37,885 bases of DNA from a virus: positions 1 to 37,885 of IMG/VR virus record IMGVR_UViG_3300046011_003262; one strand, written 5' to 3'. This document shows, piece after piece, positions 2,182-12,680 of the stretch (position 1 is its first letter; every line of letters starts with the position of its first letter). The position numbers were made by a program, and so were the translations under genes. The notes beneath the pieces were generated by a model. The model searched no databases. It saw nothing but the letters and a program-made list of their open reading frames with translations, and was not told where the DNA came from.

Positions 2182-3630
2182 AATCAAATCTCCGCCATCA
2201 GAGCGGGTTAACAAGTCTTCAGCGCTGCTAACTGTCCAACCGCCTTGAGCCAGAATCTTAATGGCTTCCTCGCGGTCAATGGTGCCTTGCATTTGAGCGG
2301 CCAACACTTGCTGAACTTCCTGCGGCGTCAGCTTGGTTGCGCTGAAGTCTTTAGTAAGTGCGATCACAACTTGCTCGTTTTGCTCAACTGCATCTTGCGA
2401 CCACAGTCCTTCAAACATACCGCAATACAGAATCGCCCGCTCGAACGCCTCTTCTACGCAATTCGCCAGGGCAATAAGCCGGCTTGTTTGCTCTGCAGAA
2501 TCAATGTTAGCCTCTGTTGCTGTCTTGTCCGCAGATGCCTTGGTAGGAAATGAACCGCCAAGCGCACGAATCTTTGCTTCGTTGTCTTTGAAATATCGCT
2601 CATACCCTTCCAAGCTGATATTGGCAGCAAGGATTTCGCCGCGAGACTCTGCAGCAAATACGTTAACTGCGCCGGCGCCAGTGGCCACATAGTCGCGCCC
2701 GTTCACTGCTTTAAACTGACCCCAAGCATTCTCGTCAATGCCGTAAAAGTTAGTCGTAGGCGGTAGCATCCGCATAGCTTCTTTGTACTCTGCGCTGACC
2801 TGATACCGGTTTAATGACAGGTCGCAGATTGGCGCAAGATAACCAAGCTCTACCGGCATTGAGCCAGATTGGAATGGCTCATCTGATAGTATTTGCACTG
2901 GCAACCACTTAAGCGGCTGGTTTTTTACTGTGACATAAGAGCGCTCGCCAATTGCCATGCCGCCTTCACTTTTGACAATCTTCTGCTGGTAATAATTGCC
3001 TTCTTCATCGAGCGCGAGAATTAGGTAAGACTCAATCTTGTTGCTCAGCATCTTGTATGGATCAAACTTCAATCCAATCTCGAGCAGCATGATATAAGAC
3101 AGCTGCATCTTGCCGTTGATGCGCTCAAAATGCCAATAGATAACGTTTTCACGTGGGTATTGTTTGATGGTTGCTCGCGGGCTTAGCTGTGCAGCATCCG
3201 CCATAGACAACTCAGTTAATGGTAGGTCAGACAATCCGCGATAATCAGAGACTAAAACGTGCCATTTGACAGCTAAGGCGTTAGCGATTGATTCAGACAT
3301 TGAAGAGCGCAAAGATAAGCCGTCACCGTCTGCGTCTTCTTCCAAATACGATAACCGGTCAGGCAGCTCAACATCAGCGGCGTTTGGATTGAGCTTGCCA
3401 ACTAATGACTTGAGCGTCTGCCCTGGGATTTCGTCAAACTCTGCGCCGTCAATATACTGACTGTATCGAATCTTCGCTTGCTGGCTTGAGCTGTCCAATG
3501 ATGACGGGTGAGGCAGTAACTTTTCGCGCTCAGCTTTTACAAATGGCGAACCTTTGATGCAGACTCGAATCTTCCGGATTTCATTTTCCATCAGCGCTGC
3601 TTCAGGGTGCTTTGTAATATTTTCCAGCAT
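2170..3630 (-). CDS. Portal protein (DUF4055-like)
   Basis: A 486-residue protein in the usual portal size range and position next to the MuF-like and scaffold genes. Long helical segments, a central charged region and the C-terminal 'EVQQVLAAQMQGTIDREEAIKILAQGGW' type segment are as in DUF4055 phage portal-like proteins. Portals form the dodecameric ring at one capsid vertex through which DNA is packaged. The ATG at 3630 has GAGG 7 bases upstream. A late promoter (3656-3678) lies in the gap before it, so portal expression can be raised apart from the terminase genes. Family assignment is by pattern memory; a profile search would settle it. Confidence 0.82.
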   Translation of the reverse strand: MLENITKHPEAALMENEIRKIRVCIKGSPFVKAEREKLLPHPSSLDSSSQQAKIRYSQYIDGAEFDEIPGQTLKSLVGKLNPNAADVELPDRLSYLEEDADGDGLSLRSSMSESIANALAVKWHVLVSDYRGLSDLPLTELSMADAAQLSPRATIKQYPRENVIYWHFERINGKMQLSYIMLLEIGLKFDPYKMLSNKIESYLILALDEEGNYYQQKIVKSEGGMAIGERSYVTVKNQPLKWLPVQILSDEPFQSGSMPVELGYLAPICDLSLNRYQVSAEYKEAMRMLPPTTNFYGIDENAWGQFKAVNGRDYVATGAGAVNVFAAESRGEILAANISLEGYERYFKDNEAKIRALGGSFPTKASADKTATEANIDSAEQTSRLIALANCVEEAFERAILYCGMFEGLWSQDAVEQNEQVVIALTKDFSATKLTPQEVQQVLAAQMQGTIDREEAIKILAQGGWTVSSAEDLLTRSDGGDLISNT

Positions 3631-7089: not shown

Positions 7090-7565
7090 GCCGCCACCTC
7101 CTGAACATGCCGATAGTTCCAATGCTTATCCACATCAAGCAGGCGCAGTAAATCCCGCTCCATTTCTTCCTCTGTGCCGTATGGCACCGGTATCGCAGCC
7201 CAGCCAGCATTTACAACAGTCATCACTGCTTTGCATTCATCGATGATTCGCTGATGCTCTGCGCGCAGATATTCGCTTAACTGGTCGTGCCGGTATGCCG
7301 CCTTGAGCTTTAGCGGCTGCATGACTAATTTCTGCTTGCCGTTTGATTCCAAGCAGTAAACCGCCAGCACTACAAACCAGTCAAACGCAGTGCGGTTAAG
7401 GGCTTCAGCGACTGCAGGCCCAATTTGTACCGGTTTGCCTGTTTTTTGTTTGACCAAATCAACCAGCTTGTCGGCAAATGTCATAACCAATGCCAAATCA
7501 CGCACGGCAAGTTTTGACTGAGTGATAAGGCGTTTGATTTTACAGTGCGGTTTGCGCTTACTCAT
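7086..7565 (-). CDS. Hypothetical early protein (159 residues)
   Basis: A basic N-terminus (MSKRKPHCKIKRLITQSK) leads into a mostly helical protein with a hydrophobic central segment (RTAFDWFVVLAVYCLES, about residues 59-75) that is probably buried rather than membrane-spanning. The C-terminal half is acidic (TEEEMERDLLRLLDVDK). It starts at 7565, overlapping the HNH-like gene's stop by one base (TAATG), and ends in a GTGA overlap. I do not recognise the family. Position late in the leftward early operon would fit a regulator, but nothing in the sequence shows it. Confidence 0.7.
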   Translation of the reverse strand: MSKRKPHCKIKRLITQSKLAVRDLALVMTFADKLVDLVKQKTGKPVQIGPAVAEALNRTAFDWFVVLAVYCLESNGKQKLVMQPLKLKAAYRHDQLSEYLRAEHQRIIDECKAVMTVVNAGWAAIPVPYGTEEEMERDLLRLLDVDKHWNYRHVQEVAA

Positions 7566-8137
7566 TATAAGTACCTCGCTCTTAATGCGTTAGCCACCCG
7601 ACTATCTTCTTGCATAAAAGACAACCTAACGGACAGCTCATGTTTTCGTTTTTTCCACTGTCGGTGAGCATCTAAAGCGTCCTCAAAATACCCTAAATGC
7701 TCTAGCTTCTTTGTAAATGGATTTTGGCATCTGGCCCTGAATCTTCCTGTCTTTTTGCAAATATCTACACCTATCGGGAATTCACCTCTTGATGAAAGAT
7801 TTTCATTAATAAACGTGTTTGTAAGTGCGTCAACAAAAGCGCAATTTTCTGGCGAGTACAGCTTTCCGTCTCCGAGAATATCCTTGTCAAGCTCCTTGCC
7901 TGCCCAGTCTTGATTTTTCATCCAGTCTTTAAAATTGCTAAATTTTATCCACTCATCACACACAACACAGCCAACATATGTTGGTCTTTTAAGTTGGTAA
8001 ACCGCTGAATAGCACCTTGTTATCATGCGCTCCCATTTACTAAAAAATACACACGCAACTTGCTTGCCATTAATGACGGGCTTTACAGTGTACCCAGCAT
8101 CATTAATTCCAACACCTTGTATTAGTTTAATAGCCAT
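7565..8137 (-). CDS. HNH/AP2-like endonuclease-type protein
   Basis: 190 residues from the ATG at 8137, chosen because GGTGG lies 5 bases upstream; the extra residues of the longer frame fall in the terminator-like leader. The core reads 'WERMITRCYS', 'YVGCVVCDEWIKFSNFKDWM' and 'LDKDILGDGKLYSPENCAFV', the pattern of free-standing phage homing-endonuclease-type proteins of the HNH/AP2 group. The C-terminus (TGRFRARCQNPFTKKLEHLGYFEDALDAHRQWKKRK) is a good AP2-type DNA-binding match. Two Cys pairs could bind zinc. It is preceded by its own promoter and a structured leader (8148-8271). It interrupts no visible gene, so it appears to be a free-standing mobile element gene. Catalytic competence is not established. 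Confidence 0.7.
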   Translation of the reverse strand: MAIKLIQGVGINDAGYTVKPVINGKQVACVFFSKWERMITRCYSAVYQLKRPTYVGCVVCDEWIKFSNFKDWMKNQDWAGKELDKDILGDGKLYSPENCAFVDALTNTFINENLSSRGEFPIGVDICKKTGRFRARCQNPFTKKLEHLGYFEDALDAHRQWKKRKHELSVRLSFMQEDSRVANALRARYL

Positions 8138-8147
8138 AAAAACCACC

Positions 8148-8271
8148 AAAAAAAATAAACCCCGCATCAGTTAGGACGGCCAGCTAGTTGGCACCTGATG
8201 CAGGGTTATAATCGTCTAGCCTGTCTTCGGCTTTTGGCCTGCAATCAACTCACGTCCTACGGCTTGTTGAT
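8148..8271 (-). ncRNA. Candidate structured leader / attenuator RNA
   Basis: The RNA, read on the minus strand from about 8271, opens with a hairpin AUCAAC/GUUGAU (8271-8266 with 8249-8244). Its loop holds UAGGAC, complementary to GUCCUA (8177-8172) inside the 3' hairpin, a possible kissing loop. The 3' hairpin CCC(U)GCAUCAG/CUGAUGCGGG (8205-8195 with 8170-8161) encloses a small GCCA/UGGC stem and is followed by GUUUAUUUUUUUU, terminator-like. UGCAGG (8243-8238) can pair instead with CCUGCA (8204-8199), the 5' arm of that terminator, giving an antiterminator. The Shine-Dalgarno and ATG of the HNH-like gene follow at once. I cannot match a known riboswitch family. Confidence 0.55.
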
Positions 8272-8277
8272 ATTTAC

Positions 8278-8305
8278 ATTATACACCAACATTAATCGCC
8301 GGCAA
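8278..8305 (-). promoter_or_regulatory. Sigma70-type promoter for leader RNA and HNH-like gene
   Basis: Minus strand: -35 TTGCCG (8305-8300), 16-bp spacer, perfect -10 TATAAT (8283-8278). The predicted start at about 8271 is the first base of the leader's first stem. It lies immediately after the stop of the upstream gene (8306). Confidence 0.65.
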
Positions 8306-10222: not shown

Positions 10223-12454
10223 TTAAAACTTAGCTGGTGGCAGCAACAACTGCCTGCCGTCAGATGTTCGCCTGCATAAGTTGCCGTTCAGCTTGCGGAT
10301 AATCAGTCCTGCGTTTGTTGCATCTCCCTTGGTTGGGCGTTCATATCCACACTCATTCAGCACAGCTGTAGCCGTTTTCCAGTCGCTCCACCTGTCTTTA
10401 CTTGCAGACCAATCAAACCTGCTGGTTATGGCTTCCTCAATTGGGTCTATGGCTGTGAACTCTTCATTGTGGCTATTCAGCTGAGTCATTTCTTCAGGCG
10501 TCAAATAGAAACCTTCACCGCTCAACCACTCTTGATACACCTGCGCCCAAACCTGCTGCATGTCAATATCGTGTGAGTGATTCAGCTTAGCTACTTCAAT
10601 AGTCCAATAGCGCCTGTTGCCAGTTGGGTCGTGCAAGAACTCTTTCGGGTTCACTGAACCAAAAAACACCGTGCGCCTAGCGTATTGACTTTCTTTTCTC
10701 GCATAGGCCCTCCTCAGCACGTCCTTGTCATTAGTCAGAAACGCTTTCAGAGCGGCTATGTCAGCCTTTCTAAATGTACTGTCTAACTCACCAAGCTCGA
10801 CAAGCCAAAAGCTAACAGCCTGCTTTACGCTGTCTCTATCGTCTGGTTTTAGTATTACGCCGTCTTTGATTAAGTTCTTGTCTTCAGGCACTAGCGACTT
10901 AAACCACTTAGTTTTACCAACGTACTGATCGCCCTGAAACACAAGGACACCTGAGGCGCTAACACCTTTCGGACTGAACGCTCCTGCAATGGCTGAAATC
11001 ATCCATCGAACAATGAGGGTATCTTTAAGCGCAACAGCCTTGGCGTTGTCAGAGTCCTTTATGGTAACTGTATCGAGCAGATTGCTCAGATGGTCTTGAC
11101 CATCCCAAGGCTTTGAAGTAACCCACTGTGCGACAGGGTTGTACTGGTTCTGGTCTGCAATGTAAGTGACGAATCCTGGCAGCTTCGCTGTCGGCATACG
11201 AAACAGGCTGCACTCAGATTCTAGCCAAGCCAGTGATGCGTTACCCTCGTTGTCTAAGCTGAATGACTGACCAGGAATAATTACTTCCTCTTCCTTACTT
11301 ATAACGTTGTATCGGATGTTAACGCCAAGTCTGCGGCAAATCTCCTGCAGGTTTGCGATATGCGCAACAGGTATGCCCTTTTCAGTGCAAAACGGCAATG
11401 GTGAATCAGGATCAGCGTCATAAAAGACAGCTGGTTGTTGCGGCTCTGTCTTGGCTTGCGTCTGCTCAGTTGGCTTTACTTTCGCCGGCGCCTTCAGCTG
11501 AATACCTAGCTGTTCAGCTGCCTTTCTGAATGCCATCTTATAATCGCCGTTGCATTCATAATAAGCAAACAGGTCATAACTGCTAACAGGCTTGCCAGAT
11601 GATTCGCTGCAAAGCGGGTCTGATGCGTGGTGGATCCAACAGTGTTGCGAGTCCAGCACATGAACACCAGCCAGCCCAGTACCAGAGTGCGGCGACAAGT
11701 AACGCTTGCCGCGCTTGCTGTACCCGTACCGCTCAAGCGTGCTGAATAAGTCATTACGTGCGTTGAACTCCCCCTGTACGTCTGGCAGGTCGCCTTGGTG
11801 CGATTTAGCCGCCGGCGCTGCTGGCTTGTGAATCTCCTTGACAGACCAAGGGCAAACGCCTTGCAGTTGAGGCTTGAAAGCATCCCAAGCAGACCAGATT
11901 GCAAGCAACCAATCAGGAGGGCATGGCCATTCATCAAGCGACTTCGGCGGCTTCACACTCCACTCATATGGTTTCAGTGTTTCAGGGTGAACAGATGGAG
12001 GGATAACGTCTTGCTTCTGCGAACCATCACAAGCGGCACGCAGCTCGACTATTGTGTAATGCTTCTTCTGGTCTTCTTTGCGCGGCCAGTTAACTTTGCA
12101 GTATGGCAGGTGCATGTCATCAGGCACGCGAAACATGACACGAGTGCCGCGCCCTTTGATAGTCGGATAGTCCTTGAGCGCATCAGATGGAATGCCGAAC
12201 TCTTCAAGGATAAGCGACCACCCTTCAGCGTCGTCTATGTCAAGCGAGCACATGCGAGAAGGCCCAAGAGCAGCGCCCATGTTCCAATCTTTGTGCAGCT
12301 CCCAATAAGCGAAAGCCTGGGCAGGCTCAGTTAACGTCTTGTTGCCCCAGTCTTCGTATGTTGGAAACTTGCGCAGCGGCTCGATTGGAACTAGGTGCCA
12401 GTTGTAACGCTCAGCGTAAATTTTTGCGTATTGAGATGCGGTTAACTTACTCAT
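10223..12454 (-). CDS. Prim-pol / VirE-type replication protein
   Basis: 743 residues. The N-terminal region (about 1-200) matches bifunctional primase-polymerase proteins: 'YNWHLVPIEPLRKFPTYEDWGN', 'WNMGAALGPSRMCSLDIDDAEG' (the acidic D-I-D-D motif), 'GRGTRVMFRVP' and later 'DVIPPSVHPE'. The C-terminal half is a VirE-type P-loop ATPase: Walker A GDQYVGKT near residue 505, 'WLVELGELD' near 550, 'LKAFLTNDKDVLRRAYAR' and 'TGNRRYWTIEV'. This primase plus putative helicase fusion is a common phage replication initiator. The ATG at 12454 has AGGAGGG 7 bases upstream, better than the in-frame start at 12484. It overlaps the zinc-binding gene by 8 bp, and the candidate origin lies just downstream. 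Confidence 0.9.
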   Translation of the reverse strand: MSKLTASQYAKIYAERYNWHLVPIEPLRKFPTYEDWGNKTLTEPAQAFAYWELHKDWNMGAALGPSRMCSLDIDDAEGWSLILEEFGIPSDALKDYPTIKGRGTRVMFRVPDDMHLPYCKVNWPRKEDQKKHYTIVELRAACDGSQKQDVIPPSVHPETLKPYEWSVKPPKSLDEWPCPPDWLLAIWSAWDAFKPQLQGVCPWSVKEIHKPAAPAAKSHQGDLPDVQGEFNARNDLFSTLERYGYSKRGKRYLSPHSGTGLAGVHVLDSQHCWIHHASDPLCSESSGKPVSSYDLFAYYECNGDYKMAFRKAAEQLGIQLKAPAKVKPTEQTQAKTEPQQPAVFYDADPDSPLPFCTEKGIPVAHIANLQEICRRLGVNIRYNVISKEEEVIIPGQSFSLDNEGNASLAWLESECSLFRMPTAKLPGFVTYIADQNQYNPVAQWVTSKPWDGQDHLSNLLDTVTIKDSDNAKAVALKDTLIVRWMISAIAGAFSPKGVSASGVLVFQGDQYVGKTKWFKSLVPEDKNLIKDGVILKPDDRDSVKQAVSFWLVELGELDSTFRKADIAALKAFLTNDKDVLRRAYARKESQYARRTVFFGSVNPKEFLHDPTGNRRYWTIEVAKLNHSHDIDMQQVWAQVYQEWLSGEGFYLTPEEMTQLNSHNEEFTAIDPIEEAITSRFDWSASKDRWSDWKTATAVLNECGYERPTKGDATNAGLIIRKLNGNLCRRTSDGRQLLLPPAKF

Positions 12455-12680
12455 CAAACAGCCCTCCTTGCCAGCTGCCATCATCCGTTTGCATAAACTC
12501 GTGAATTTGGTAGCCGGTTGGAATTTCAGAATGCTTGATGAAAAGCTTGCCGCCGTGCCGCTTGGTCTTTACAACCTTGCCGCACTTGCTGCACTGAACG
12601 CAGTAATGCGCTGTCCCGTTTTGAAATGTTCGTCTTGCGTAGCGTAGAAAATCAACATGATCGCAATCATTCTGATTCAT
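12447..12680 (-). CDS. Small zinc-ribbon-like protein
   Basis: 77 residues with Cys/His groups 'DCDHVDF' and 'HYCVQCSKCGKVVK', the latter like half of a zinc ribbon. Preceded by GAGGTGAACCA before the ATG. It lies between VRR-NUC and prim-pol genes and overlaps the latter by 8 bp, so it is likely a replication accessory. Single-domain zinc-binding proteins in this position are usually unassigned; metal binding is inferred from the cysteines. Confidence 0.7.
   Translation of the reverse strand: MNQNDCDHVDFLRYARRTFQNGTAHYCVQCSKCGKVVKTKRHGGKLFIKHSEIPTGYQIHEFMQTDDGSWQGGLFDE

Follow-up and report, generated by a model that had tools for sequence, protein, structure and literature searches.

The window, the whole 37,885-nt stretch of viral DNA analysed here, carries on its minus strand a structured leader RNA (8271-8148) directly before an HNH/AP2-type gene, and this leader belongs to an apparently new, undescribed family of RNAs found before phage HNH/AP2-type genes. 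The family comprises 12 distinct loci, the window and 11 homologues in phage contigs, and comparison of their sequences establishes the fold, both of its pseudoknots, the position of the promoter, the terminator, the linkage to HNH/AP2 genes and the variety of insertion contexts. On balance, we favour the view that the element is a portable promoter plus structured-terminator leader that would hold endonuclease expression low or conditional. A sigma70-type promoter is predicted to set the RNA start at the first base of hairpin P1, and the element is made up as follows.

8300..8305, minus strand: -35-like hexamer TTGCCG (10/12 matches together with the -10 box, spacer 16)
8278..8283, minus strand: -10 box TATAAT, 6 nt 5′ of the RNA start (same offset in 9/12 homologous loci)
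8148..8271, minus strand: structured leader RNA, the whole predicted terminated transcript of about 124 nt (sequence, models and covariation)
8266..8271, minus strand: P1 5′ arm AUCAAC (pair 5 covaries G-C/G-U/A-U)
8244..8249, minus strand: P1 3′ arm GUUGAU, partner of AUCAAC in the 6-bp hairpin
8254..8259, minus strand: PK1 5′ strand UAGGAC, within the P1 loop (kissing loop; 72/72 cells paired)
8172..8177, minus strand: PK1 3′ strand GUCCUA, within the terminator hairpin (covariation)
8237..8239, minus strand: P2 5′ arm GGC (covariation), with the conserved loop CAAAA
8229..8231, minus strand: P2 3′ arm GCC (covariation)
8216..8220, minus strand: PK2 5′ strand GCUAG, immediately 3′ of the conserved ACAG (60/60 cells, 5/5 positions covary)
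8183..8187, minus strand: PK2 3′ strand CUAGC, within the P4 loop (covariation)
8195..8205, minus strand: P3 (terminator stem) 5′ arm CCCUGCAUCAG (130/132 cells paired, most positions covary)
8160..8170, minus strand: P3 (terminator stem) 3′ arm CUGAUGCGGGG (covariation)
8190..8192, minus strand: P4 5′ arm GCC (middle pair C-G, G-C, A-U or U-A among relatives)
8179..8181, minus strand: P4 3′ arm GGC (covariation)
8148..8159, minus strand: predicted intrinsic-terminator U-tract UUUAUUUUUUUU (U-rich here in all relatives checked)
8143..8147, minus strand: Shine-Dalgarno-like GGUGG, outside the structure (from sequence; no conserved sequestration)
7565..8137, minus strand: HNH/AP2-type gene, 190 aa, phrog_953, with a predicted C-terminal AP2 fold (profiles and structure prediction)

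Relatives of the window RNA were recovered with pattern searches and covariance models. An exact 16-mer scan of IMG/VR gave one real match among 21 (L015), the other 20 being coding matches of other genes, and a gapped pattern search gave the homologue L025. Across the window and these two leaders, P1, P4 and the terminator stem already showed compensatory changes. The covariance model built from these first three (R1) identified five further distinct leaders among 80 HNH/AP2 loci (E 1e-10 to 1e-17), and a fixed-spacing pattern with a second covariance model added four loci, so that the family consists of the window, L015, L025, L152, L158, L166, L167, L172, L173, L174, L182 and L184. L167 and L184 are two copies on one contig in opposite orientation. 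Members come mostly from metagenomic viral contigs, some of which are fragments, and the family size of 12 loci is a lower bound. A pattern scan of genome contigs produced two matches (Streptomyces and Trichococcus) and another pattern search produced seven, all due to chance. Rfam 15 scans of the window, at the gathering score and at E up to 10, gave only chance lncRNA matches, a DNA similarity search of phages and plasmids gave no real match, and we found no paper describing this leader RNA family in the open-licence literature. Its members share the covarying PK1 (between the P1 loop and the 3′ side of the P3 loop), the covarying PK2, a promoter at fixed distance, a terminator and a downstream HNH/AP2 gene, the last being missing in L025.

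Folded alone, the window RNA is only moderately unusual (z -2.18; 5/200 shuffles were equally good), and the single sequence cannot settle the structure by itself. Judged against the 11 homologues, the fold is far beyond chance. In a hand-curated comparison of the 12 sequences, in which paired cells were counted per helix with shuffles as the control, PK1 was paired in 72/72 cells with 5/6 positions covarying. This kissing loop, UAGGAC with GUCCUA, had been proposed in a preliminary description of the window; it joins the P1 loop to a site just 5′ of the terminator 3′ arm, and relatives have UGAGAC/GUCUCA, UAGGAA/UUCCUA, UAGUGC/GCACUA, UGAUGC/GCAUCA, UGAAGC/GCUUCA, UGGAAC/GUUCCA or UGGAAA/UUUCCA in its place. 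The covariation evidence is the same for an intramolecular kiss and for a dimer. A second pseudoknot, PK2, which was absent from that description, pairs the five bases after ACAG with five in the P4 loop (60/60 cells; all five positions covary) and takes forms such as GCUAG/CUAGC, GUAGC/GCUAC, GUCAG/CUGAC and ACGGA/UCCGU; we picked out its strands manually in each sequence, using fixed anchor positions. P3 (130/132 cells), P4 (36/36 cells, with all four Watson-Crick types at the middle pair) and P2 (42/48 cells) each exceeded all 5000 shuffles. P1 varies little (68/72 cells paired, p 0.067), its fifth pair being A-U, G-U or G-C. Strongly conserved unpaired bases are UUG, CAAAA, ACAG and GGUG.

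An independent counter applied to the model alignment, which lacks PK2 (384 cells), agreed with this picture: 97.1% of cells were paired compared with 76.4% in shuffles, 78 cells were changed on both sides compared with 24.9, and the covariation score was 0.617 compared with 0.194 in shuffles and 0.06-0.08 for slid structures. PK1 paired in 97-100% of cells although it had no part in the model behind the alignment, which was therefore not fitted to this pairing. Homologous leaders thus show compensatory changes both in the fold and in PK1, and the lack of such changes was what the preliminary description had named as refuting its structure. These data also bear on another explanation, that the upstream gene has an ordinary intrinsic terminator in which the complementarities arose by chance. 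The stem and U-tract would make a perfectly good terminator; nevertheless, the two pseudoknots, P2 and P4 covary in 12 loci beyond shuffles and slid structures, and the conserved unit begins at the promoter rather than at the end of the upstream gene. The covariation refutes this explanation, and we give it almost no credence.

The promoter is also conserved. The -10 hexamer lies exactly 6 nt before the RNA start in 9/12 loci and 4 or 7 nt before it in the others, with a summed match of 61 compared with 36.7 ± 2.8 at random sites (0/3000 random draws were as high); the -35 matches are weaker across loci, yet still enriched (p 0.006). Because of this conserved offset, the start site first proposed for the RNA, at the first base of the hairpin, stands. 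At the other end, the terminator-like 3′ hairpin and U-tract before the ribosome site are present in the window and in the relatives checked; the terminator hairpins have predicted energies of -19.5 to -26.1 kcal/mol and U-rich tails. The predicted terminator has the G+C-rich stem followed by a U-tract that would be expected of an intrinsic terminator. In the window, the U-tract ends 10 nt upstream of the AUG at 8137, and across the family the Shine-Dalgarno sequence lies just behind the terminator and is not sequestered. Sequestration of the ribosome site by a T4-type hairpin was rejected, since this site is behind the U-tract and shows no excess complementarity. Given the fixed order of promoter, RNA, terminator, ribosome site and gene, with the ribosome site free, control would be exerted by termination and not by hiding the ribosome site.

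The preliminary description had also envisaged a choice between terminator and antiterminator, with UGCAGG displacing the 5′ arm of the terminator by pairing with CCUGCA. The complementarity exists in the window, but the displacement has no conserved counterpart: for the 5′ arm, a sequence's own pairing averaged 4.36 bp compared with 4.15 bp with the arms of other sequences, and for the 3′ arm upstream pairing was 4.09 bp compared with 4.37 bp in crosses. No conserved, mutually exclusive helix was detected with either terminator arm across the family, and the terminator/antiterminator choice was abandoned. Since PK1 and PK2 do not exclude the terminator, the family seems to have a single fold of which the terminator is part, rather than the two states of a classical switch. 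This weighs on the idea of a ligand- or protein-controlled switch (riboswitch or autogenous control), in which the level of termination would depend on whether a metabolite, a phage factor or the HNH/AP2 protein itself is bound. The compact double-pseudoknot fold with its conserved unpaired bases would suit such a switch, and T4 homing endonucleases do autorepress, though at the DNA level (PMC2988022). Against it, besides the lack of a conserved alternative helix, there is no Rfam riboswitch match, and the leader precedes HNH proteins that are only 43-55% identical, with a related type, described below, before a different HNH family. We consider a switch unlikely.

For the structured-terminator leader that we favour, transcription of the RNA, efficient termination, a role of the pseudoknots in termination and control of the downstream gene are all inferred. 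Transcription would start from the sigma70-type promoter at the first base of P1, and the nascent RNA would fold P1, P2 and P4, which the two pseudoknots would lock. The intrinsic terminator P3 (11-13 bp) would then close just before the HNH/AP2 ribosome site, the pseudoknots coexisting with it and bringing its arms together. Most transcripts from this promoter, along with readthrough from upstream phage genes, would stop there. The endonuclease-type protein would come only from transcripts that read through, or from those made while the terminator is overridden, possibly by phage antitermination or because a factor of phage or host origin attaches to the pseudoknots or unfolds them. Two pseudoknots exceed the needs of a plain terminator, which hints at an additional role. 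Counted against the structured-terminator leader are the L025 RNA that lacks an HNH gene, the scattered distribution in the HNH tree (7 changes, weak forks), the lack of a conserved alternative pairing that would make a switch, and the majority of examined HNH/AP2 leaders, in which these tests reveal no such structure.

Next to the RNA, a phrog_953-type HNH/AP2 gene lies directly 3′ in 11/12 loci (the window and 10/11 homologues). The leader is retained although the HNH proteins behind it share only 43-55% identity with that of the window. In L025, the complete RNA is followed by a 72-aa ORF and then an ATPase-GNAT gene rather than by an HNH gene. This L025 gene (4666-5718, directly behind the RNA) encodes a 350-aa protein with an ATPase and a GNAT-like domain, which we take to resemble Mom-type DNA modification proteins. 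The preliminary assignment of the window gene as HNH/AP2-type was borne out: the 190-aa protein (P0001) matches PHROG HNH families and was assigned to phrog_953, and its AlphaFold2 model (pLDDT 93.6) has a C-terminal part resembling the plant AP2 domain (Foldseek match to 1gcc, prob 1.00). In agreement, a profile match to the AP2 domain of WRI1 was obtained (E 7.5e-6) and Pfam AP2 was found in 6/26 members, so that profile and predicted fold both point to an AP2 DNA-binding domain at the C-terminus. A structure search with the predicted model gave no PDB match for the N-terminal HNH-like part, and by inspection the conserved motif LDKDLL..NK.YSP..C has no His at the usual DH place; nuclease activity is therefore not assured.

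That L025 keeps the RNA in the absence of HNH would also fit a stand-alone small RNA gene, whose product would be the terminated RNA of ~120 nt, with the downstream gene either carried along or a partner. Such an RNA could have a trans-acting effect on RNA or protein of the phage or the host, or form a stable RNP with the HNH/AP2 protein. It would have its own promoter and its own terminator, the latter included in the fold, and strongly conserved unpaired bases. However, its placement just before HNH/AP2 genes is near-strict, no antisense match of at least 11 nt to the leader RNA occurs elsewhere in the window, and the variable bases are mostly used in internal pairs, with little left for a target-specific seed. 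We therefore regard a stand-alone RNA as possible but doubtful.

The element is absent from the corresponding site of closely related phages. Neither the RNA nor the HNH gene is present there in L038 (91% identical neighbour protein), L047 or L050, and in L047 and L050 the flanking genes nearly touch at the site. No RNA copy was found in the whole records of 23 contigs related via the neighbour gene, nor in three reference phages. The flanks also differ in other phages that carry the RNA (terminase, single-stranded-DNA-binding-like, reductase-like and tail genes), and the HNH genes that carry the RNA do not group together in the tree (7 changes, many forks being weak). These comparisons indicate that promoter, RNA and gene form a portable unit and that the RNA is not strictly tied to one HNH lineage. 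We rejected the idea of a leader common to late operons in this group of phages, as close relatives lack the RNA and other phages carry it elsewhere. Another proposal is an insulator or processive-antitermination element, modelled on lambdoid put/nut or the lambda pR′-tR′ late leader, in which the RNA would modify RNA polymerase or shield the phage operon and so spare late genes a polar effect of the inserted cassette. The window element does sit between replication and terminase genes, in cis, with promoter, short leader, terminator and then genes; the insertion context nevertheless differs in other phages, and a terminator within it fits poorly with pure antitermination. Put RNAs are not known to end in an intrinsic terminator of their own, which also counts against this proposal, and we judge it very unlikely.

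In related phages, the stretch that separates the small upstream gene from the phrog_5434 gene (window 7566-8305 and L038-L061) is a hotspot for cargo, with HNH, DNA methylase, ATPase-GNAT and membrane-protein genes occupying it in turn. A short hairpin, GCGCTTCGGCGC, recurs before the ribosome site between swapped cargo genes in L047 (about 155-170), L054, L056, L057, L060 and L061 and is a possible recombination linker. Elsewhere in the window, 10223-12484 encodes a primase-polymerase with a VapE-like helicase domain, and the terminase is closest to those of Plesiomonas phage phiP4-7 and Kagunavirus.

Similar architectures occur in a wider set of HNH/AP2 leaders. Among 64 non-redundant leaders, a terminator-like stem precedes the start codon in 19, of which 12 also have a kissing 5′ hairpin, compared with 25 stems and two kissing hairpins in 256 shuffles of leaders; most of the HNH/AP2 leaders examined have no such structure by these tests. 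With a complete descriptor (P1, PK1, PK2, P4 and P3), L089, L103, L112 and L124 score at least 31. This amounts to 4/59 leaders, whereas 5785 rounds of shuffling averaged 0.025 and never exceeded 2; these statistics are exploratory, given that the descriptor was written after sight of some of these leaders. The four have the same topology as the family, no sequence match to it, and are unrecognised by the RNA models. Two of 359 leaders of other genes reach the score, the L025 RNA itself (as L052) and one inside a terminase gene, and further chance matches across all loci were L132 at 30 and L177 at 34. The L124 type also occurs in the cultured Pseudomonas phages Orisa01-03 (72.5% identity, E 1e-9), in which PK1 has changed in a compensatory manner from GUGAGAC/GUCUCAC to GUGGAAC/GUUCCAC, the 11-bp PK2 is unchanged, and the gene behind the leader belongs to a different, canonical HNH family (phrog_99). 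This comparison provides an independent check on the wider class.

Several other phage leaders were noted alongside. L015 contains a near-threshold int-alpA RNA (2429-2492, plus strand; 32.4 bits, gathering 35.8), and 7 nt behind it a second HNH/AP2 gene (2499-3083) that lies antisense among head genes; in Aeromonas phage 4_4512 (L206), another near-threshold int-alpA RNA (810-876) directly precedes an HNH/AP2 gene (896-1549). The int-alpA RNA may partly be an endonuclease leader. In Pseudomonas phage KIL1 (L208), a depositor-annotated promoter and terminator (930-989) stand immediately before a phrog_953 gene in the same part order. By eye, Aeromonas phage vB_AsaM-56 (L207, about 1080-1180) has an 8-bp hairpin before its HNH/AP2 gene, the loop of which (GUACGAG) complements CUCGUAC in the terminator loop, a simpler one-kiss form. 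In L103, a tRNA gene (2249-2321) is located just behind the HNH/AP2 gene that has a kissing-terminator leader. As a speculation that we think improbable, the double-pseudoknot RNA could work together with the endonuclease cassette and not just restrain it: the HNH/AP2-type protein or a phage factor would bind the RNA, which would couple expression or activity of the selfish gene to the infection state; the unrelated-looking HNH/AP2 leaders, int-alpA-like ones included, would then form one fast-evolving superfamily held by topology.

No known RNA class that we compared matches the window RNA. The int-alpA RNA (RF02996) is likewise small, phage-linked and ends in a terminator-like outer stem, but its model places two hairpins inside one outer stem without P1-loop kissing, and the window RNA gave no match to its covariance model at E up to 10. 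HEARO/omega RNA of IscB/IsrB also adjoins a gene annotated as HNH nuclease; it was rejected because there is no Rfam match, the 190-aa AP2-fold protein has no RuvC or PLMP match, and the window RNA begins directly in P1, leaving no room for a guide. Riboswitch and attenuator leaders share with the window a 5′ leader position, pseudoknots and a terminator before the start codon, whereas the window has no conserved antiterminator, no Rfam class and a downstream gene that is not metabolic. A Pistol-ribozyme-like order of elements was discarded (the strand order differs, and there is no Rfam match), as was a group I intron remnant suspected by eye before a Vibrio K62 HNH gene, which had no Rfam match.

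Few selfish genes are as common in phages as those for homing endonucleases, and the way in which they avoid harming their host phage is an old question, addressed mainly in T4 studies. RNA hairpin leaders are known before the T4-like homing endonucleases I-TevI, I-TevII, I-TevIII, segB, Aeh1 mobE and seg43(25), the last, in Aeromonas phage 25, being a hairpin of very high stability that directly precedes an exposed ribosome site (PMC2988022). That such a leader is unusual in a phage, as originally suggested, is therefore only partly right, because structured leaders recur on HNH/AP2 genes and hairpins are found in T4-like phages (PMC2988022). Both kinds are structured RNAs directly before an endonuclease-type gene, thought in the T4-like case to limit expression of a homing endonuclease, and this restraint by leader RNA structure is a precedent for the window leader (PMC2988022). 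T4 leaders hide the ribosome site, whereas that of the window is free behind a terminator-like hairpin, and, unlike T4 leaders, the window-type RNA comes with a promoter of its own and is defined as a family by two covarying pseudoknots. The leader probably keeps a selfish endonuclease gene mostly off. Leaders unrelated in sequence can keep one topology, and the Pseudomonas phages Orisa01-03 offer a cultured relative to work with. Since the RNA family that travels with such endonuclease genes is supported by covariation and brings along a promoter and a terminator, the question of how such genes are held in check would become testable by simple reporters.
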